DNA from: Flavobacteriales bacterium
Lineage (GTDB): Bacteria > Bacteroidota > Bacteroidia > Flavobacteriales > ECT2AJA-044
Assembly: GCA_021296215.1 (NCBI GenBank)
Contig: JAGWBA010000021.1
Coordinates: forward strand, 1-55,782
DNA length: 55,782 nt
Direction: 5' to 3'
The number at the start of each line of letters is the position of its first letter. Position 1 is the stretch's first letter. The notes beneath the pieces were generated by a model. The model searched no databases. It saw only the letters and a program-made list of their open reading frames with translations, and was not told where the DNA came from. A program made the position numbers and the translations under genes. Of the stretch, positions 37,215-52,251 are shown piece after piece.

Positions 37215-40200
37215 CTAAGAACTCCTAAGCCTTCTCCACCTCATGTAGGCCACCGAGCTCAACAGCACTAACGAAATCACGGCTATATACACCCACTGTG
37301 GAATGGGAACAGGATCACCGGCGGCGTAGCTGTGGAGTCCACTGAGGTAGTAATTGACCCCGTAATAGGTCATGATCACTGATGCCAGTCCGAAGAGGGT
37401 GCCGACATTAAATGCGAACATATTCCTAAAGGCCGGAATAAAACGCATGTGCAAGATCACGGCATAAACCAATATCGAAACGAGCGCCCAAGTCTCTTTG
37501 GCATCCCAGCCCCAATAGCGTCCCCAGGACTCGTTTGCCCAAACCTCACCGAGGTAGGTTCCGACCGATTGCATGAAGAGTCCGGCCGTGAGCGTTATCT
37601 CACTGATGGCACTTAACTCTTCGATTTTCGGCCGCGTCTTTTTCCATCGTTGTCGACTCGCCGTTGCGATCAGCAACAAATTGATCAGCCCGATGATGGC
37701 ACCGAGCATCAAAAAGCCATAGCTACCGGCCTCCAGACTCACGTGGATAGTGAGCCAGTACGATTTAAGCACCGGAAGGAGCGGGGTGATCTCCGGATTC
37801 AAATAGCTGAGCATGGCGATCAGCAGCACCACCGACGCCAGAATATTGGTTGCCGCCAAAGCGCCGACCGAACGTCGCGCGAATAGGGTTCCGGCCAAAG
37901 TAGAAGTCCAGGCGATGTAGATCATACTCTCATAGCCATTACTCCAGGGTGCCCGCCCGCTGACATACCACCGCAGGCCGAGTCCAACCGTGTGAAAAAT
38001 AAAGGCCAACATCAGCGCTCCGGTCAAAATCCGAGCCCATCGGCTATGTAGTGGCTTTTCTATGAACACACCGGCAAACAGCAAGGTCAGGAACAACAAA
38101 CCCAGGAACAGGTATACCAAGGCTAGCCTATTGAAGGGCTTCCATTCGTTAAGCCAAATCTCGGCGCTGCGCTTGGCATCGGTCGGAACCAAATCCGTGC
38201 CTTGATTCCTCTGATAGCGATCGAGGTCGGCCGCTAGGTCATTAGCTTGTTGGTATTGGCCCTCTCGGGCCGATGTCCTCAATGCGCTTCGATACGAGTT
38301 AAAGAAGCGGGCCGCCACCTCGGTCGGTTGCTCACTGCGATGGTGTGCGCCTGAAGACCACCGCCGTGCAGGGTCATCCGGCACGGGCACCAATCGAAAA
38401 AGCATGCCTGAAAACACCATGTTCATGATGTTCACCCGCTCATCGACACTGATCAAGTTTTTCTCATAAACGCCTTTCTCGGTAGCGTCCATCATATTGG
38501 CACGAGCGACCTCATCGCCCAATTTGTACGATCCGTCTTCGTTGAAGAAATCGCGATAAACCGCTTTATCCCCCTCTACTCCAACCAATTGGTTTAATCG
38601 CTCTGCCTTGCCCAACTTCACGAATTCAACCGCATACCAAGCCGAAGGCTCTGTCCACGTACTCAATACCACTTGGTCGGCATTGAGACCCGACCACGAC
38701 TCACTTCCGTGGATTTTGCGCAAGATTTCCCGGCTCAGTGTGTGCATGGGCTTCATGCGCCCTCGAACGTCCTGAACGATCAGTTCCGAAAAACGCTCGG
38801 CATGGTCTTCGTCGATCTGAGGCACGGTTTGACCTTGAACCTGACCGGCCCAAGAGACCGCTATTAAAATCGCAATCGCTGCTCCCCTGTTCCGAAGCTT
38901 GGTCACGCGCTGTCCCAATTCGGCAAATCGCGTGTTTTTTGAGAACAGCGTCAACAACATACCCAAGGTCAGCAGTGCATAGCCCAGATAGGAAGTCCAC
39001 GTTCCTAAAGCATCGTGATTCACACTGAGGTAGATCCCAAGCTCATCGCGATCGTAGCTCGATTGAAATAAACGATAACCCCGATAGTCCAGAATATGGT
39101 TCATAAATATGCGAAACGGGCGATCAACACCGCGTTCCTGATCGTGAATGATGACCTCGCTCGCAAAACTTTCCGGAGAGTTGGTGCCCGGGTATCGCGT
39201 CATTTCAAAATCGAGCAATTCGAGCGAAAAAGGCACCTTCACTCGTTTTGCCCCATAACCGGCCCCTACAACATCGCCAACGACGACCTGCAATACACGG
39301 CCTTCAAGCCCTTTTTGACCCGTAATCAGCAACTCTTCAGCTCTCCCATCGGCCGTGACCTCCAACCTTAGTCCATTGGTAGATCCGCTAACCAACTTGG
39401 AGCTGCCCGGCAACCATTGTAGTTCACCGGACGGCATAAAATCACCAAACACGAAGGCCCCGTAACTCGATTGGTACAGGCTTCGGAAACGCAGCATATG
39501 CCACTTATCGAGCATCAGGGTGTCCATTGCTCCCGTGGCCATGACCCGCTCTATCAAGGGCGCATCGGCCCGTAGGGCCATAGAATCACCACTCCACCTC
39601 AAAGAAAAGGACCGCGGAGACGGATCATCACTAAAATCAAAGGGCACGCCTTGAATGAGCCGCTGATCACCTGGCGAGAGGTAGTACTCGCTTCGACCAT
39701 TGGCCCCTCCAAAAACCACCTTGAGCAATGGCTTACCATTTTCAGAAGACCGTGCGCTGATACTCGCGTTTGGCAAGAACTCCAACAGGCGAACGCGGAT
39801 CGATTTTCCGTCGAGCTCAAAGATCTCGTCAAACGCATTGGTGCCGAGCGTACCAAAAAGCACTTTTCGATCGATCTAGTACGATCGGTCCCCAACTTCG
39901 AATTGAAGCCCGACGTACGATTCGCGACTTAAAAAGTAATTCGACGAATCCCCTTCACGGATGTGCATGGTGCCTTCAAAACCGTAAAATCGAGTGAAGG
40001 CCAACCCAACAGGATCACGAGCATCGCCCCGTGAAAAATCAGAACCGTCCAACGCCGTCTTTGAATGAGTTTGAACTGAATGATGTTATACACCAAGCTG
40101 CCGCCGAACAAAAAAAGCAGTGTTTCGAACCAAGTCGCCCTGTAAACCACCTTCTGGGCGGTATCGGTGCCAAAATCGTTCTCCACAAAGGTGGCCGCAC

Positions 40201-40276
40201 CCACGGCAATGGCAAACACAGCCAAGTACAACAATGCAGCTCGCCTACCCAACAACATCTCGAACACCTTCTTCAT
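37215..40276 (-). pseudogene. ccsBA: Fused cytochrome c maturation protein ResB-CcsA, two lesions
   Basis: System II cytochrome c synthase, which exports haem and attaches it to CxxCH. The 5' part (from ATG 40276) reads MKKVFEMLLGRRAALLYLAV then FVENDFGTDTAQKVVYRATW, the usual ResB start. It loses frame near 40001-40008. After restoring one base the protein continues FTRFYGFEGTMHIREGDSSN, then hits an in-frame TAG at 39876-39878 (...EVGDRSY-stop-IDRKVLFGTLG). The remaining 882 codons are open and include the CcsA haem-handling motif SWGRYWGWDAKETWA and the expected histidines (HTVGLGLRWY, TIHVSLEAGSYGF, LHMRFIPAF). So one frameshift and one amber stop inactivate an otherwise complete 1,020-residue gene. 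It is the last gene of the decaying module. Whether another c-type maturation system exists in the genome is not visible here. Confidence 0.85.
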
Positions 40277-40277
40277 A

Positions 40278-41036
40278 TCAACGCGTCAATCGTGCATCCT
40301 CCAAAATGAAATCGTACCGATAGCCGGCACCAAAATCCCGATCCGCTCTAAATGTCCCTTCAAAAGTCAATTCGTGTCCGGCCGGAATCTGCTCCGCCGT
40401 AGTCAATACAAAGTCAAACGAATTCATGGTCCCGTCCGCCAAATGCACCCAATTGCGGTCCATGATGTTCGGATTCACCTTCACCACACGCCCGGTCACT
40501 TTGACTTGTTTGCCGACGTATTCTTCTGAATTCGCTATCAATTCTTTAATGGATACGGACCCTACGGGTCGATCGAGGGCTTTCACGGGTTTCTCAATTT
40601 CCTGCACGGGCGCCTTGGTCATCCAGGCCCGCCTACCTTCCGATTCCTCCGACTTCAGATCCGACACCAAGTAGATCTCTTCAAAGGTTCTATCGAATTC
40701 GGTACTGTGGTAGTTCGTTTTGTACAACCCTTGGTGAAAAACGTAGTGCCCACCAACTTCAAAGAGGCCTTTTCGCGTAGCCAACCACGTTTACGAACCA
40801 TCGGACATACGAACTTGCAGGTACTGATATCGCTCTCCTTCGAGCATCTCCGGAACATGCATCTCGCGGTGCGATGCGTCGTAATCCGAAACCGTTTTAG
40901 ACTGACCCGGCTCGTTGAAGACATCGGTTTTATAAGACTCCTGTTCAGTACCTACGGAGTCATTAGCTTCGAGTGAAGTTTTGTTTTGTCCGCAAGCTAC
41001 GACGAAGAAAAGCGCGCTTGTTCCCCTGCTTAGAAT
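40278..41036 (-). pseudogene. Lipoprotein with GW-like and OB-fold domains, ochre stop
   Basis: The frame reads from a lipobox (LFFVVACGQN, cysteine codon 40992-40994) through SYKTDVFNEPGQSKTVSDYD and ERYQYLQVRMSDGS. It then meets an in-frame TAA at 40791-40793 and continues TWLATRKGLFEVGGHYVFHQ in the same frame. The first domain resembles the beta-rich GW-type domain of NrfJ-like proteins found beside multihaem cytochromes (YLxVxxxDGxxxWLA). The second (YVGKQVKVTGRVVKVNPNIM, HLADGTMNSFDFV) is an OB fold. No ATG, GTG or TTG precedes the lipobox in frame; the frame also overlaps the barrel gene, so the start is lost too. A lysine codon (AAA to TAA) is the simplest ancestor of the stop. Confidence 0.75.
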
Positions 41037-42582
41037 ATTCGCCGAGTGCGCCCAATCGCCAGGCCGATGCCAGTCGGGTGTTCGCCTCTACACCGTAGTA
41101 GTGTTGGCCGGGAACTTGAATGTCAACAGAAGTATTCTCATACGACAAGCCCCGGTAATAAATTGCCGAGTACGCTTTTCCATCGAAGAAATTTCGGCTG
41201 TATCGGGCCGACCACAACCGGGTCGACAAATACCTCGATGTTGTTCGGCCATATCGCGCTGATAAATTGCCACCGATCCACGGTAGTCGATACATTCCGT
41301 AGATCTGTACGAATTGACTGTAGTTCTCGGTATTCAGCTCCTTTCGGTAATTGTAGACCGCCCCGATCGACCAACCTCCACTCGATCGGTAATTCAGGCG
41401 AACTCGGTAACCTTGTCGTATGTTTTGTTCGGCCAGCAATCGCTCGATCTCGGTGTCGAATTGCTCAAAGAAGATAATGCGGTCCCTCGAGTCGAACGAT
41501 GCAAAGGCCGTCCAATGACGATTGAATCGATAGCGCAACGATGCGTAAATACTCGTGAGCTTGAATGTGCTTGCCGCTGAGGCCGTATCGAAATTCTCGT
41601 AAAGGTCTACTTCTCCCGAAGCGAAGGCATACCATTTACCGACGGAGGTCGACTGTTGCAAATAAAGATGCCGTCGATCTACATTCCTATTATTCCGCTG
41701 CTCTAAAAACCCGAGTGTAGCTTGGGTCCACCAATCGCCCTTGCGCTTGTCGAATCCGCTGTATACTCCGTATTCAAAAAGCGATGGGTCGTAGCCAAAG
41801 TCATCGAGATCGGGTCGCGAACCCACTATGGCACCAGCGTAGAATGCACCCCAATACTTTTCGGCTTGTAAACCATCTATAGGTCCTAGTGACGATGCCT
41901 TGTGATTAATGGCACGGCCCGGGGTGATGCGGAGTGAATCGCGAGCGTGGCAGGTAATTGCAGCTCTGTAGATATTGACCAAAGTCGTAGGGCCACTGCT
42001 CGGATTATTATCGGACCGTATATACTCCTGATAATTGAGATAGGTATTGAACGAAAAGCGAGAACCAGCTATGCGATCGGCATTTACATAGGCCCTTCCC
42101 ACAAGCCGGGTGTACCCTCCCACGTTGTCGTCCGGGGTATAATTGCTGTAGCTCGCAAAGGAAATTCGACCATCAACATGGTCAGGTCTGGCTTTTTTTA
42201 CTTCGGGTTCGACCTCAGGTTCCTCGGTCGTGGCCGCGGTGTCGACCTCGGTACTAGAGGTGGCAACCAGAGCTGCAACCGCGGGCTCGGCTTCGGGAGG
42301 TCTCTTTTTAATCAGGATCACTTCGTCGCCTTTGGCGGGATCACAATCACCAATACGCTCCGTTACCGCCGATACGGACGAGATCTGCATCACGCGCAAG
42401 CAAGGTTCGCCCCCAAAAAAGAGGGTATCGCCTTGGGTTAGGTCCGAGGTGTTCGAAAAACGCACATACACGTTCTCCGATGCTACATAGCTCACCTCTC
42501 CCGACACGGACGTGTTTTGGGCCACAGTAGCAAATCGTGCCGTAGGCACTAGAAAAAGTAAAAGGACAAAACGTTTAATCAT
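40963..42582 (-). CDS. Outer-membrane beta-barrel, possible porin of the cytochrome module
   Basis: A 539-residue protein: signal peptide (MIKRFVLLLFLVPTARFATVAQ), a small N-terminal beta domain (SYVASENVYVRFSNTSDL), an acidic linker (about 115-150), then some 16 or more amphipathic strands (YRFNRHWTAFASFDSRDRI, IGAVYNYRKELNTENYSQF, QIYGMYRLPWIGGNLSARYG). The layout suits an outer-membrane porin that could wrap or dock a periplasmic cytochrome, as MtrB-type porins do; this role is inferred from position only. It is the only gene of the module without an internal stop. However, the signal peptide contains an arginine in its core, and the C-terminus (RAFLRRSLRTKQNFTRS) lacks the usual terminal aromatic strand, so it may also be damaged. 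Confidence 0.65.
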   Translation of the reverse strand: MIKRFVLLLFLVPTARFATVAQNTSVSGEVSYVASENVYVRFSNTSDLTQGDTLFFGGEPCLRVMQISSVSAVTERIGDCDPAKGDEVILIKKRPPEAEPAVAALVATSSTEVDTAATTEEPEVEPEVKKARPDHVDGRISFASYSNYTPDDNVGGYTRLVGRAYVNADRIAGSRFSFNTYLNYQEYIRSDNNPSSGPTTLVNIYRAAITCHARDSLRITPGRAINHKASSLGPIDGLQAEKYWGAFYAGAIVGSRPDLDDFGYDPSLFEYGVYSGFDKRKGDWWTQATLGFLEQRNNRNVDRRHLYLQQSTSVGKWYAFASGEVDLYENFDTASAASTFKLTSIYASLRYRFNRHWTAFASFDSRDRIIFFEQFDTEIERLLAEQNIRQGYRVRLNYRSSGGWSIGAVYNYRKELNTENYSQFVQIYGMYRLPWIGGNLSARYGRTTSRYLSTRLWSARYSRNFFDGKAYSAIYYRGLSYENTSVDIQVPGQHYYGVEANTRLASAWRLGALGEYSKQGNKRAFLRRSLRTKQNFTRS

Positions 42583-42587
42583 GGCTA

Positions 42588-44048
42588 CTATTCGGAACCG
42601 TCCGGATGACAGTTGTAGCAGGCGGTACTTTGGTAAACATAGCCGTTCACCTCATCGTGTTCATCGGCTAAATCGTTAGGGTCATCGTGCTCGTGGCAGT
42701 CGATACAACTAAATAAGGTGTAGTTGTTCGGCGTCGTATGGCAATCGATACACGTGTTCCACTCGCCTTGGTGGTTACCCGAATAGATCGGGAAGCATTG
42801 ACCGTCGTGATCCGTAAAACCGGCTGGGGTCCAGCCGGGGTCGAGGGAGTGGCACAAGGTACACTCGGTACTGAAGCCTTGGTCGGCGTGATTCGGATCG
42901 GTGGTGTTGTTGAAATCGTCGATATGGCACGAGGCACATTCGCTACTGATCTGTGTATAGTCCGCGCTCGTATGACACGCGTTACAGTCGGCGACATCGT
43001 GTACTCCGGTCAGGTGGAACATGGAGTGAAATCCGGGGATGTTCCAGCCGATGGTGTTGGGATCGTGGCAATCGGTACACGCCATGGAGTAGCCCGATGC
43101 GTTGTGGTCGGGTTCTGTAGTGGCCAAGAAGTCGTCCGTATGGCACGAGTTGCATTCCGAGGAAATATTGTCGTACGGCATGCTGGTGTGACACTCGACA
43201 CAAGCCGAGCCATCGTGATTTCCAGTAAGCGGGAAAGCAGAGTGAAAACCTAGAACACTCCAGCCAATGGTATTGACGTCGTGACACTCGGTGCATTCCA
43301 TTGAAAAACCTGCAGCACCGTGGTCCGGCTCAGTGGTGGCCATGAAATCATCGGTATGGCATGAGCTGCATTCAGAAGAAATCGAACCATAGGGTTGACT
43401 CGTATGGCATTAGTTACAATCGCCGATGTCGCGGTTTCCGGTCAAGGGAAAGCCCAAGTGAAAATCCTCACCTACGCCCCATTCAACGGCATCGACATTA
43501 TGACACTCGATGCAATCGAGCGAGAAACCCACTTCGGTGTGGTTGGGAACGCCGGTGGTCAGATAATCGTCGCGATGGCAGTCTACGCATTCGTTTCAGA
43601 TGGGTTGGAAAGCGAGCGGGTTCCCACCGGTATGGCAGTCGTTGCACGAAATAATTCGGTGGGTTCCCTGTAGAGGAAATCCGTTTTGTTCGTGGAGTTC
43701 CGGAATATCGAAAACGAGCCAACTATTACTGTCGTGGCATCGGTTGCAGTCGTTCCCGACGGTTTGCTGGTGCACATCCTCATGGCAGCTGAAACAATCC
43801 ATTTCGGCCCCTTTGAAGCTCAGATCATCGTGGCAATCGGTACATGAAATATTTTTGTGTTGGCCTTCGAGCTCGAAACCAGTGGCTTTATCGTGATCAA
43901 AGGTCATTTGGTCCAGCCGAATGTCCCAGCCGCCCGAATGGTGGCAGTCGCGGCAATCGATCTTGAGTTCATCGCCGTGTGGGTTTTGTCCGGAGGCTAG
44001 AGCAGGAGCCAGCAGGCAAGCGAGTAGAATTGCCTTCAAAAAATTCAT
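42588..44048 (-). pseudogene. Multihaem c-type cytochrome (19 haem sites), two in-frame stops
   Basis: From ATG 44048 a signal peptide (MNFLKAILLACLLAPALASG) leads into a protein with 19 CxxCH sites. About 70-residue repeats each carry three (pattern CxxCHTS...SECxSCHxDDF...ECTxCHDxNTIGW). One frame runs through the whole gene, but TGA at 43596-43598 (...LAFQPI-stop-NECVDCH) and TAA at 43410-43412 interrupt it. The second stop falls inside haem motif eight (DCN-stop-CHTS). No frameshift is needed to read the rest. The simplest ancestors are Ser/Trp/Arg for the TGA and Gln/Lys for the TAA. Without readthrough only a five-haem N-terminal fragment would be made. Predicted location periplasm or cell surface. 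Confidence 0.88.
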
Positions 44049-44095
44049 CAACGGTAAAATAGGTGACCTAAAGGTCGTAAATATGACCTCTACCA

Positions 44096-45748
44096 TCAAG
44101 AGTGGCAATCGATACAATCAAAACGTTTTATCTTATAGATTATGATGTCGCTATTCTCCTCCGGCTTGTGGCAGGCGTCGCATTTGATCTGTGCGTGTCG
44201 GCCTTCGAGAATGAACTGCGTACTGTCGTGATCGAATTTGGCAATGGGCCAGTCGGTAGCAATAGCATGGCATCGAGCGCAATCACTCGAACTTTCGGGG
44301 GTGTCGAATTGAGCTCCGTGGGCGATTCGTCGGAATGGCACTCGGTGCAGGCTTTATCGCGTCCTTTGAATTGTTGAGTATCCCAATCTTCACTAAAATG
44401 GCAAGCGCGGCAATCGGCCGAACCGTGAACGCCTTCGAGGGGCCAATCGGTTCTGCTGTGGTCGAAGGTGATGGATGTCCAAGTATCGTTGTTGTGACAT
44501 TCGGTGCAGCCGTTCATCGAGCCGAAAGGCTCATCCATATATCCCTCGTGAATATTGTCGTGGCAAGCGACGCAGCTCTCCGATTCGAGGGTGAAATACC
44601 ACCGCTGTTCCTCGCTGGGCTTGTGGCACGCAAAGCAAGGCGTGGCGAGGTGTGCGCCTTCGTGGGGGTAGTCCGATTCTTGGTGATCCGATAAGCCGAA
44701 AGAGCTGAACGAAAATTCATGCTGCAGATCGTGGCACTGATCGCAGTCGGTAACCAAGCCTTCGATGGAAGTAAAATCACCTTCGTGGTAGTCCTCGTGG
44801 CAGTCGGTACAGTTATCGAATGGTATTGGCTGAGAATAATCGCCCGATGTGTGACTATCGGCGCACGATACCTGTTGGTGTTGGCCTTCGAGCGGAAAAT
44901 GAGTGAGGCCGTGATCGAACCTGTTTCCGGCCCGCAGTTGGCTCCAGCCGTTTACCGAGTGGCAATCGGTACAGGCAATTCCGAAGCGCCCATCGTGCTC
45001 ATCTTCGTGGCAGTCGGTGCAATTCGCAAAGGCAACCCCAGCGAATTCTTGAAACGCTTGACCATTGCGCCGGGTTTCGCGGTGGCATTCAATGTAATCT
45101 ACCTCGGTATGCCTTGCCCTCGAGCTGAAACGGCGTTTGTCCGTGATCGAAATACTCAGCCCCTTCGAAAGTGTCAAAGCTGTGGCACGAAACACAATCT
45201 TCGGCGAGGGTTCCCCAATGTTGATCGGCATGGCAGGTCAAACACGCTTCTTGCAGTCCAATGAACGTTTCGCTGCGCTTAGCGATCTCTTTATCCGCGA
45301 TATTATCGGCGGTATGGCAATCGCGACACGCGATGCGTCCGTGCTCTCCCTCGAGCGTATAGCCGGTCCGGTCGTGTTCAAACGCCTCTTCATCGAACCG
45401 AGTAGCGTCGAAGGCTCTACCGTGATGTTCGCTGTGGCAGTCGATGCACGATTACTTCTTTACATCTGAATAGGCGTGATACCCGCGATCCGCCGAAATG
45501 AGCGTTTGGATTTCCTTGTGGCAATCGAGGCATTTTTGCTCGGAGATCTTATTTCCAATATCGTGGCACTTGGTGCAATTCGATATCCCTTCCAAGTCGG
45601 CGTGCGCGGTTGAAAGCTTACCCGGCGAGAATTGAGCCAATGAAGAAAGCGACAACAGAAGCAACAGCAGCGGAATATTCGATTGTATCCTAATCCTGTT
45701 TTTATGTAGCTGTAGCTCATTAACTATAATTCTTCTCCCCCCGGTCAT
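44096..45748 (-). pseudogene. Multihaem c-type cytochrome (20 ancestral haem sites), stop, two frameshifts, two lost haem cysteines
   Basis: ATG 45748 opens a signal-anchor-like start (SNIPLLLLLLSLSSLAQF) and the first haem sites NCTKCHD and KCLDCHK. Then TAA at 45452-45454 interrupts (DVKK-stop-SCIDCH). A one-base insertion at about 45112 moves the frame, and a one-base loss near 44320 moves it back. Reassembled, 20 CxxCH positions are recognisable, in units such as CTDCHEDxHDGxF. Two sites are dead: CIECH became YIECH (codon 45094-45096) and CADCH became CADSH (codon 44854-44856). It ends RFDCIDCHS-stop at 44096. Stop, shifts and active-site substitutions together show loss of function, not recoding. 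Confidence 0.88.
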
Positions 45749-45752
45749 CACG

Positions 45753-47086
45753 CTAATTTCGGTACTTCTTAACGATCTTACCGAATTTCTTTTCGACATC
45801 GATACCGGCGTTCTTCAAAAAATCGATCGGCAATTCTCCGCCGATGAAGATGTAGACCAAATCGTTCTCCAGATATCGCTCCGTTCCGTCGGCCGTTTTC
45901 AAGGTTACCGAATCGGGCTTGATCTCCGTAACATTCGAGGAGTAAAGCACCTCAATTTCTTCCGCTTCCAACGCCGCTTCGAGTTTTTCTTGATTTCCGG
46001 GCTTTATTCGTCCAAATTGATCTTTGCGGTACGAAATACAGACATGGTTTCGATCCTTGAGCAACAAGGCCGACTCCACGGCAGAATCACCTCCACCGAC
46101 CACGAGTATTTTATTATCCTCGATCAATTCCGGGTCGAGCAACCGATACGCGACCTTGGTCGAAACCTCATCCGGAACCTCCAATTTACGCGGGGTACCT
46201 CGCCGTCCAATGGCTATGAGCACTTGATCGGCAAAAACCGGATCTCGTTCCGCAATTTCTCAAGTATATGCGCCTGCGGCGCGATGAATGGCATCGACCT
46301 TATGCCGTTCGCGCACCTCGATGTTGTGCTTTTCGATCGCATCGGTCCAAATATCCAATAGCTCATGCTTGCCGGTATTGACCAACTTCACAGGCCCGTA
46401 CAGTGGAAGGTCCATCGGCCGGGTCATGACCACTTTTTGTTGCGGAAAAGTAAATACCGTTCCGCCGAGCGAGCCTTGTTCGAGGATCACAGCTTTCATA
46501 CCCAGGCATTTGGCCTCGAGCGCGGCGGCGATTCCGGCCGGACCCGCACCTACGATGGCCAGATCAACTTCGACTTCGGATTGCTCTGGTCTGTTATTGT
46601 GCGCCGTTCTAACGGCCTGTATTCCCTGTTCCGCGCTGTTCTTTATAAGGCCCATTCCACCCAATTCCCCGGCAATATAGATCCCCGGCACATTGGTCTC
46701 ATAATCGGGCTTTACATGGGGCAAGTCAACACCCCGCTTTTCAGTGCCGATTCGCACTGAAATGGCTTCGACCGGACAGGCGTGAAAGCACGTTCCGTGA
46801 CCAATGCACGCGGTGGCGTTGATCACCGTTGCCTTTCCGTTGATAAGCCAAAGAATATCCTGCTCGGGGTAAGCTCGTACGCAAGCACCACTTCCAATAC
46901 AGCTACAGCGATTGAGGTCGATGTACGGATGAAGGGACACGGGTTCGAATCGGCCCGATTCCTTCGCTTTGTTCATTTTATCGCGAACTTCGGCCGATTT
47001 TCGTTTTCCCTTGCGCACATAGACCGCAACTACTATGATGACGAATAAGAAAGTAAGACCATATGTTATGACTTCCTCGAGAGCAT
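45753..47086 (-). pseudogene. Membrane-anchored ferredoxin/FAD-NAD(P) oxidoreductase, opal stop and start-region frameshift
   Basis: The body reads: a hydrophobic N-terminal span (YGLTFLFVIIVVAVYVRKG), two ferredoxin-type clusters, then a pyridine-nucleotide-disulphide-oxidoreductase fold with FAD motif VDLAIVGAGPAGIAAALEA and NAD(P) motif KILVVGGGDSAVESALLL. Lesions: the ATG (47086, sharing bases with the preceding stop) is out of frame with the span, requiring a one-base shift near 47075-47083. In the first cluster CVRACPE has become CVRAYPE (codon 46869-46871). TGA at 46260-46262 interrupts GAYT-stop-EIAERDPVFADQV in the same frame. The second cluster (CIGHGTCFHACPVEAI) is intact. It would have passed electrons from NAD(P)H towards the membrane cytochrome. 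Confidence 0.85.
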
Positions 47087-47721
47087 TAAAAGATCCATTT
47101 ATAACCCAAGGCCAGAGTTACCCCAATGTGGATGACGACGATCACCAACATGATCAACACAAAGGGCCGGTGTACGATATGCCAATAGCCAAACCATTTG
47201 TACATGGTCTTGATTCGGCGCATGCCGGCCTCTGATGCGTCGACGTCGGTTTCAATTTCTTGAAGTGATTTGGTTCGACTCGAAACCGACTTGGGAATTT
47301 GCAAGTATAAGTAGCGGCCCACTACCCCGCTGAGCACTATCGCCGTCATGCTCCAAAAGGCAACGGAAACGATTCCGCCAAACTTGAAGGTAGTGTGAAA
47401 AAGCACGAGTATGGGCCCAAGAGTGCACAAAAATATATGGAACTCGAGCAGGTATTTCAGACGGATGTATCGGTCCAGATAGCCATACATTTTTGCCGTG
47501 ATGTACATGACCACTCCAAATAAGATCATCGATGTGCCTATGATACCAAGGCCGTGCCCAAGTATACCGGAAGCTTTTTACCAATCGTACCGCGGATGGT
47601 AAAACCGCTCTTCAAGAGGCAGCGAATAGAAGTCCCATCCAACCCAGAATAAATAAGCCGTTGCGGCCACTGTAATGGCCGACATGATCAATATGTAAAA
47701 AGTGTGCTGTGCTCTTTTCAA
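47086..47721 (-). pseudogene. Membrane b-type cytochrome-like protein, ochre stop
   Basis: About 211 codons with four hydrophobic segments. The frame starts at TTG 47721 (MKRAQHTFYILIMSAITVAA), runs to FYHPRYDW, meets TAA at 47578-47580, and continues KASGILGHGLGIIGTSMILF. Histidines placed in or at the ends of helices (LEFHIFLCTLGPILVLFHTTF, YWHIVHRPFVLIMLVIVVIHIG) are candidate haem b ligands. A leucine codon (TTA to TAA) is the likely ancestor of the stop. The gene shares its stop with the start of the oxidoreductase gene. First gene of the module; it probably linked the oxidoreductase or quinones to the periplasmic cytochromes. Confidence 0.78.
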
Positions 47722-47892
47722 AATCCCAATGATCGATATTCATTGAACGACCGAAAGATGGGGTTTTGTATGAAACTACGCAATGACGAATGTTCTGAGG
47801 TGGTTGGTTGGTTGGTTGGATAAGAAAGTTAATGGCTAATGGAAGTAACCGACGGCTAGGAGTTGTTTGGTTAAGCTCATGTTGCTTATGGC
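47722..47892. repeat. Gap with GGTT run and TTATGGCCTATAGC tandem repeat
   Basis: GGTT is repeated four times at 47802-47818. AAGAAAGTTAATGGCTAATGG follows (47822-47842), a copy of the word at 14960 and 55664. TTATGGCCTATAGC occurs twice in tandem from 47886 and runs into the 3' end of the next gene, supplying its last codons. Confidence 0.55.
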
Positions 47893-50288: not shown

Positions 50289-52251
50289 ATGGAGACCTTC
50301 TATCTTTTGATCGTTGTGGTGCTCGTTGGACTTGCGGCTACGGATTTAGTCGTTGGAGTCAGCAACGATGCCGTGAACTTCCTAGATTCCGCTATTGGCT
50401 CCAAAGTAGCCACGTACAAAATCATTATGATCGTAGCCGGTGCGGGTATCTTTATCGGGGCTACCTTCAGCAGCGGCATGATGGAGATCGCTCGGAAAGG
50501 GATCTTCAACCCTCAGTATTTCAGTTTTGCGGAGATCATGATCCTTTTCGCCGCAGTGATGATCACGGATATCCTCCTGCTCGATTTCTTTAGCACCTTC
50601 GGATTACCGACCTCGACAATTGATCAAAGGGATCAAAGGGGCCGGCTTCGTCAGCGGAGATAGCATCCATTGGATAGGAGACAACGCTCTGATACTCATT
50701 GGTGCTTCTCTGGTTTTTTGGGCCGGAATCTTTCAATTGTTGATCGCCTTTGGAATTAACATCCTCAAATGGATCGTGATGTTCGGCACCTTTTCGTTCG
50801 CCATGGCCTTCTCCGGAAACGACCTAGTGAACTTCATTGGAGTACCCATTGCCGGACTCGAGAGCTACCTTATCCGGAAAGACTCCGGTGTGCCGGCCAA
50901 TGAATTTATGATGAACGTACTTTCAGAACCGGTGCGCACAAATACTTGGTGGTTGCTTGCGGCCGGATTCATCATGGTGGTTACGTTATGGTCTTCAAAA
51001 AAGGCCCGTACCGTGGTTGAAACACAAGTCGATTTGGGTCGACAAGCGGCCGGAGACGAGCGCTTTGAACCAACCGCTTTAGCTCGTGCATTGGTCCGGA
51101 GTGGGCGCGTGATAGGGTCATCCTTGTAGAGTCTGCTTCCGCGAACGACACGTCGGAAGATCAACGTGAGCTATAGACCCGTTGGGGTACCGGAGGATCC
51201 CGAAGTGGCTTTTGATCTGGTTCGCGCATCGGTAAATTTGACCGTTGCCGCCATGCTCATCTCCTTTGCGACCAATTTAAAGCTCCCCCTTTCGACCACA
51301 TACGTGAGTTTTATGGTGGCCATGGGTGCTTCGCTGGCCCATAGAGCCCGGGATTGCGAAAGTGCCGTTTACCGCGTAAGCGGGGTGGTGAACGTCGTGG
51401 CCGGATGGTTCATAACGGTCGGAGTTGCGTTTGCCGTGGCTGCTTTGTTCGCGTACATCATACACAAAGCCCATATGACCGGTCTCTTTGGATTAATTCT
51501 GGTCGTGGGGTTCATCCTCTTCCGAAGTTACGCCTACCACCGAAAGTCTTCAAGCAGGAAAAAAGCAAAGGGCTCACTCGTGGCCTTGGCCGATAAACCG
51601 GAGTTTGAAGTCCGCCAGATGATCGCGCAAAATGTGACGCAAATGCTGAACCTGAGTCTCGAAGCAACGGAAAGCACCTTCGATGCCGTGTTCAAGGAAG
51701 GTCGCGATTCGGTCAATTCGGCGATGAAACGGGTCGATAAATACAACGACGAAAGCAGTCGAATGAATACCGATTTCTATCGCTTTTTGCGAAAGGAGAA
51801 GGAATCGGACCGCGAACTTCAACAAGGCTTGCTCAAAGTTCTCGATCACTATCAGGATGTGGTGCGAAGTGTGAAATTCATGCTTCAGAGTATCGACGCA
51901 CATTTGGCCAACAGCCACGCCCCATTCCGCGAAGGACAGGTGGCTCACCTCATGAACTTGTGGCACGGCCGGAAGATCATGGTCGAGAAGGTCAATGCGA
52001 ATTTGCCTGGATCGGACGAGCTGGTTCAGGAGGAGCTGCGCATTAAAAAGAAAACTTTGATGGCGAAGGTCGATGAATACCTGGCCGAACAATTCGAGCG
52101 CGCATCTACGGGTGCCGTGAGTCAGCGAAATCACGAACTCTACATCCTCTTGGTTCAGGAAATGAAGGACCTAGTGGCCGTTACCCCACGCTTCGTGAAG
52201 GCCATGAACAAGGTCGAGGTCAAATCAGCTTCTTCGGGATCCCCGCAATAA
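50289..52251 (+). pseudogene. PiT-family phosphate transporter with PhoU-like tail, internal deletion and amber stop
   Basis: Low-affinity inorganic phosphate permease of the Bacteroidota PiT-PhoU type. The first signature GVSNDAVNFLDSAIGSKVA and later SGNDLVNFIGVPIAG are the paired PiT motifs. After FGLPTST (about codon 110) the sequence jumps, out of frame at about 50620, to IKGIKGAGFVSG. Around 100 residues of the central helices appear deleted, judging by the usual length of about 750. The second segment then meets TAG at 51127-51129 (VIGSSL-stop-SLLPRTTRRKINVSYRPVG) and continues in the same frame to LVRASVNLTVAAMLISFATN and a C-terminal PhoU-like helical domain (about the last 220 residues). 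SLAHRARDCESAVYRVSG departs from the usual SLADRAWGRESAVYR. Overlaps tsaB tail-to-tail by 32 bases. Confidence 0.85.

Follow-up and report, generated by a model that had tools for sequence, protein, structure and literature searches.

Does a flavobacterial genome retain the remains of a complete system for carrying electrons across the cell envelope, and if so, how does that system work where it is intact and how was it lost? The window analysed here is a stretch of 55,782 nucleotides (GenBank assembly GCA_021296215.1, contig JAGWBA010000021.1), one contig of a 2.53 Mb metagenome-assembled genome (MAG, labelled G000) of a Flavobacteriales bacterium in 135 contigs. An earlier interpretation, made from the letters of the window alone (the sequence-only reading), had noticed in it seven decayed genes for multihaem electron transfer. 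Our analysis identifies a recently dead seven-gene operon, and the operon that relatives carry intact is probably a trans-envelope electron conduit.

Lesions in the seven genes

Lesions in the window were called with a frameshift-tolerant (frame-aware) aligner, for which intact proteins from four relatives served as references. The co-directional genes at 37215-47721 lie on the minus strand in the order previously claimed: b-type cytochrome, FAD/Fe-S oxidoreductase, 20-haem cytochrome, modular cytochrome, outer-membrane barrel, lipoprotein and ResB-CcsA (Table 1). All seven in-frame stops of the sequence-only reading were recovered; we number each by its first base on the minus strand, whereas the earlier coordinates refer to the opposite end of the codon. 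The b-cytochrome has a TAA at 47580 and a deletion of ~60-80 residues between its two HX13H pairs, which stand 89 residues apart vs 151-170 in 19 relatives. Three of the four references recover the TGA at 46262 in the oxidoreductase; the remaining one gives two frameshifts in its place. Further, an Fe-S Cys of this protein, kept in 20 of 20 aligned relatives, has become Tyr, and no in-frame ATG, GTG or TTG is found at the position homologous to the relatives' start. The 20-haem cytochrome carries a TAA (45454) and frameshifts at ~45115 and ~44325, the modular cytochrome a TGA (43598) and a TAA (43412), the lipoprotein a TAA (40793), and ResB-CcsA a frameshift at ~40003 and a TAG (39878). These frameshifts correspond to those claimed near 45112, 44320 and 40005, but the one claimed near 47080 is a gene boundary, since the C-terminus of the b-cytochrome is there the same as in relatives and the next gene starts in another frame. 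The two cytochromes had been credited with 19 and 20 haem sites: the second does have 19 CxxCH motifs, while the first is left with 18 of 20.

The barrel had been singled out as the only open frame. Its frame is open, but the gene is truncated, so the barrel was not spared. From the conserved EYS motif of the barrel to the lipobox Cys of the lipoprotein there are 46 nt in the window vs 109-125 nt in five relatives, and from this shortened distance we conclude that one deletion of ~63-79 nt took the last strand of the barrel together with the start of the lipoprotein. Once this deletion is counted, all seven genes are broken.

If the stops and shifts were read through or recoded, the genes could still be functional, and the identity of the operon proteins to their relatives, about 42-65% across the lesions, is compatible with such an explanation. 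Nevertheless, all three stop codons occur, together with frameshifts, deletions and lost starts, and no single recoding covers these; we consider it extremely improbable.

The seven stops, over 3429 codons, correspond to roughly 160-200 substitutions, which gives a stop-based neutral divergence of ~1.6-1.9% (Poisson range 0.6-4%). This estimate and the intact orthologous operons of Flavobacteriales relatives (see below) agree with the proposal that the whole module was lost recently and is still readable. Substitutions at otherwise invariant sites, a proxy for relaxed selection, reach 7.1% in the window, vs 0.5-4.0% in eight of nine relatives and 9.6% in the ninth, an elevation that appears only modest.

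Table 1. Coordinates of the broken genes in the window
Feature	Position	Strand	Remark
Di-haem b-type membrane cytochrome, pseudogene	47086..47724	-	both HX13H pairs kept
FAD/NAD(P)H - 2 Fe-S oxidoreductase, pseudogene	45753..47081	-	
20-haem cytochrome, pseudogene	44099..45799	-	
Modular cytochrome, pseudogene	42588..44117	-	19 haems = 7 + 3x3 + 3
Outer-membrane barrel, frame open, C-terminal strand lost	40966..42582	-	
Lipoprotein, pseudogene	40278..41033	-	
Fused ResB-CcsA (system II cytochrome c maturation), pseudogene	37215..40276	-	
PiT/PHO4 phosphate transporter, pseudogene	50289..52251	+	

The intact operon and its modular cytochrome

A search of related genomes for the intact seven-gene order found it at seven Flavobacteriales loci, where all the genes adjoin and have open frames (L013, L014, L033, L034, L035, L079 and L083). 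Two more, L080 and L081, have all seven genes with ResB-CcsA on the opposite strand, and at L036/L084 and L082 the operon is partial, being interrupted by contig ends. For a survey of the phylum, a profile of the barrel was run against 396 sampled Bacteroidota genomes from 172 genera; it matched 34 genomes in 27 genera, and 13 barrel loci were then read. Five core families (b-cytochrome, FAD/Fe-S protein, 20-haem cytochrome, modular cytochrome and barrel) are complete at ten of these loci (L172, L174, L175, L177, L178, L179, L180, L182, L183 and L184), and the gene set is thus widely conserved, yet not invariant. Stops reported in other barrel matches (G239 and G108) were dismissed, as the tables of open reading frames (ORFs) give full-length barrel ORFs there. 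Separately, a low-coverage 3.7 kb contig labelled Thermoanaerobaculia (L038) has a barrel and a lipoprotein near the Bacteroidota type, and is either misbinned or transferred.

The second cytochrome of the operon grows by tri-haem units of ~74 residues, mostly three haems at a time. The number of haem motifs is 3n+1 in 22 of 23 sequences and takes ten different values in the range 10-61 (seven sequences with 13 haems come from one family and are not mutually independent), and the length increment is 73.6 residues per 3 haems (r=0.999). The lone exception, with 38 haems, is found in L180, where a separate 10-haem gene adjoins. Up to 17 tandem units are flanked by an N-terminal part with 7 haems and a C-terminal part with 3, and identity among units of a single protein can be as high as 99%. 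DNA tandem repeats were looked for in the cytochrome genes of the window and none were found, so there the tri-haem units are visible at the protein level only. A single ORF in L172 (10027-14583) encodes 1518 residues with 61 CxxCH motifs.

A probable trans-envelope conduit

The FAD and NAD(P) domains of the flavoprotein are of the type seen in YpdA and thioredoxin reductase, and the protein also has two Fe-S motifs; the CxxC dithiol of those enzymes was not found outside the Fe-S motifs in any of 21 flavoprotein sequences. At the second ligand position, one Fe-S motif (the first) has Ser, Thr or Cys and the other has His. In L013 (8751-10085) and its orthologues the motifs are CxxSxxCxxxCP and CxxHxxCxxxCP, and the His of the latter, present in 20 of 20 aligned relatives, is unusual for a ferredoxin-like pair. 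Two HX13H pairs, typical of two b haems spanning the membrane, are present in all 20 b-cytochrome sequences. The model of the barrel (mean pLDDT 72) shows an N-terminal beta domain followed by a multi-stranded barrel. As for the ResB-CcsA fusion, both PF05140 and PF01578 match above cut-off in the window and in relatives, and the CcsB model TIGR03144 matches with E=2e-50, under that model's cut-off.

In the route that we propose, NAD(P)H or ferredoxin would donate electrons to an FAD protein that is bound to the membrane and carries two Fe-S clusters, and this protein would reduce the di-haem b-type cytochrome of the membrane. The electrons would next pass to the 20-haem and then to the (3n+1)-haem modular c-type cytochrome, and on to or across the outer-membrane barrel with its partner lipoprotein; ResB-CcsA would mature the cytochromes of the module. 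We infer the direction of flow (from NAD(P)H to the outside), the donor, the acceptor and the location of the wire.

Several observations weigh against this route. At three of the 13 barrel loci the core set is incomplete in the stretch read: L173 and L181 have four of the five families, the b-cytochrome call being missing, and L176, beside a contig end, has only two, the barrel and the second cytochrome. Gene order varies in divergent families, with the flavoprotein gene placed after the barrel in L179-L182. A Pfam search of the b-cytochrome returned no match, its AlphaFold model is poor (pLDDT 60) and the fold search with that model gave no match either, while the barrel model resembles outer-membrane barrels in general only. 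In addition, no extracellular terminal reductase is encoded within the operon.

Some of these points would also suit a module that serves as a periplasmic electron store or as a reductase of soluble acceptors, with a barrel that merely imports or exports substrate. The generic fold of the barrel and the absence of an MtrC-type terminal cytochrome from the operon fit such a function, and huge Bacteroidota multihaem proteins have been proposed as capacitors in a report on Saprospiraceae (PMC11495043). On the other hand, each of the 13 loci read has the barrel next to cytochrome genes, and up to 17 tandem units in the modular cytochrome go beyond obvious storage needs. We regard a store or soluble-acceptor reductase as rather unlikely, and prefer a conduit.

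That the module is unlike the classic Mtr set, as the sequence-only reading had put it, was borne out. It does resemble the MtrCAB and porin-cytochrome conduits of Shewanella and Geobacter in that multihaem genes stand beside an outer-membrane barrel and electrons would enter at the cytoplasmic membrane. The 20-haem protein has a weak similarity to the DmsE decahaem family (E=3e-13, but 49.8 of 192 bits, far under cut-off). The predicted input, however, is an FAD/Fe-S flavoprotein with a b-cytochrome, where those conduits have the quinol oxidases CymA, ImcH or CbcL. The barrel does not match MtrB/PioB: an intact copy gives no Pfam hit to that family at E<=0.1, and it has no relative among PDB sequences. 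The operon also has no surface lipoprotein of the MtrC/OmcA type: its lipoprotein is without CxxCH, and weak MtrC-domain matches occur only inside the cytochromes. A second likeness is to the tri-haem c7 'nanowire' proteins of Geobacter, which also consist of tandem tri-haem c7-like units of ~70-80 residues; Cytochrome_C7 matches were obtained in both cytochromes, and a weak TIGR04257 match in the 20-haem protein. The differences are the up to 17 internal units between 7-haem and 3-haem ends and the setting, a conserved operon with a barrel and a flavoprotein, in Bacteroidota.

Within Bacteroidota, giant multihaem proteins of Saprospiraceae have been reported as undescribed and perhaps involved in storage or in extracellular electron transfer (PMC11495043), and a bioanode MAG, Bacteroidetes_1, has a seven-gene cluster of six multihaem genes and one barrel (PMC8258643). 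What these cases share with our operon is a great number of haem motifs per protein, or a barrel gene next to multihaem genes, and a proposed role in extracellular electron transfer, but the text consulted in the two reports does not include this gene set, the pair of FAD/Fe-S protein and b-cytochrome, or the three-haem step. No description of this gene set as a unit was found in the open-access literature, which is not proof of its absence. An mBio paper on the evolution of Geobacter cytochromes contains no pseudogene patterns, and a large-scale survey of multihaem proteins does not mention Bacteroidota.

Pseudogenes across the genome and the history of the locus

The flanks of the module had been taken as free of lesions. 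This holds for 21 genes of a congener (G001) aligned in the window, but a PiT transporter gene that the sequence-only reading had not listed is a pseudogene too, with a frameshifting deletion at 50622 and a stop (TAG) at 51127. Elsewhere on the window, an integrase-core (rve) transposase lies at 1793-2608, close to the left contig end. As a genome-wide control we aligned coding-like orthologue pairs of G000 and G001, frame-aware, with a third-position filter and with gene ends excluded, in sampled stretches that cover part of each genome (L017-L032 and L086-L156). Interior lesions were found in 15 of 172 testable orthologues of G000 (about 9%) and, in the reverse direction, in 11 of 166 of G001 (about 7%). 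Together with the broken PiT, these counts contradict an isolated loss of the module in an otherwise intact strain, and the many pseudogenes of both members suggest erosion across the whole genus. NCBIfam names among the broken genes include those of an ECF sigma factor, a sirtuin, an antiporter, an RND pump, aminopeptidases and a dipeptidyl-peptidase. In the congener, the MreB gene (L016 11561-12598; 95% identity to the MreB of the window) aligns with an apparent TGA, which may or may not be genuine, ~70 residues short of the usual end. Above this background the operon is a hot spot, with seven of seven genes broken vs 15 of 172 in the control (Fisher p=1.6e-7) and a lesion density 8.9 times that of the control (p=1.3e-6).

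Lesions in so many other genes, and a genome that is a MAG in 135 contigs, might suggest errors of sequencing or assembly in an operon that is intact in the organism. Yet the G000 lesions affect 1 of 74 genes at >=85% identity vs 14 of 98 below (p=0.002), and this concentration in less conserved genes argues against random error, as do the 21 clean genes on the same contig. Moreover, substitution stops are as frequent as frameshifts (13 to 15), beside the stops there are multi-codon deletions and losses of haem and Fe-S ligands, and the congener is independently without operon and PiT. Error is therefore an improbable cause, and we continue with a genuine loss. It did not extend to cytochrome c maturation as a whole, which is ruled out by Ccm system I proteins and class I cytochromes that are still open in G000; only the module's own maturation factor was lost.

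In the congener, tsaB, yyaL and the M20 peptidase gene are contiguous and matches to the operon, ResB and PiT are all absent; a close match to the flavoprotein was sought there specifically and none was found. The congener has either lost the operon or never had it. PiT and yyaL are divergent neighbours in two genomes from another family, so PiT is probably ancestral at this position. We favour long residence of the operon and parallel loss. The opposite history, horizontal gain after the split from the congener followed by loss, would account for the lack of any trace in the congener, where yyaL and the M20 gene overlap at their stops, for the position of the operon elsewhere in the genome in the other family, and for its patchy occurrence (12 of 398 within the order). 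A tree of the concatenated operon groups G000 with one f8 genome, as a transfer might, although the tree leaves vertical vs horizontal origin unsettled. Against a gain, the GC content of the operon (51.6%) fits that of G000 (49.8%) and not that of two measured operons of the other family (44.5-44.9%), which means residence long enough to ameliorate, and the adjoining PiT, broken likewise, has yyaL as its neighbour in two genomes of that family. A horizontal origin thus seems unlikely. In this lineage the operon probably died as one unit amid wider pseudogenisation that also took PiT.

Whether an undescribed conduit fed by NAD(P)H occurs across many Bacteroidota families, combining an Fe-S/FAD protein and a di-haem b-cytochrome with a 20-haem cytochrome, a wire that lengthens by tri-haem units and a barrel unrelated to Mtr, with the window as one lineage losing it, appears to us evenly balanced. 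Such a conduit would give the giant multihaem cytochromes reported from Bacteroidota, which lack an explanation, a place in a possible conserved gene set, and its simple growth rule, one tri-haem unit per step, opens wire length to testing as a trait. To this the window contributes a loss with a date, in which a whole module and its dedicated maturation factor die together in a pseudogene-rich genus while other cytochromes are still open.

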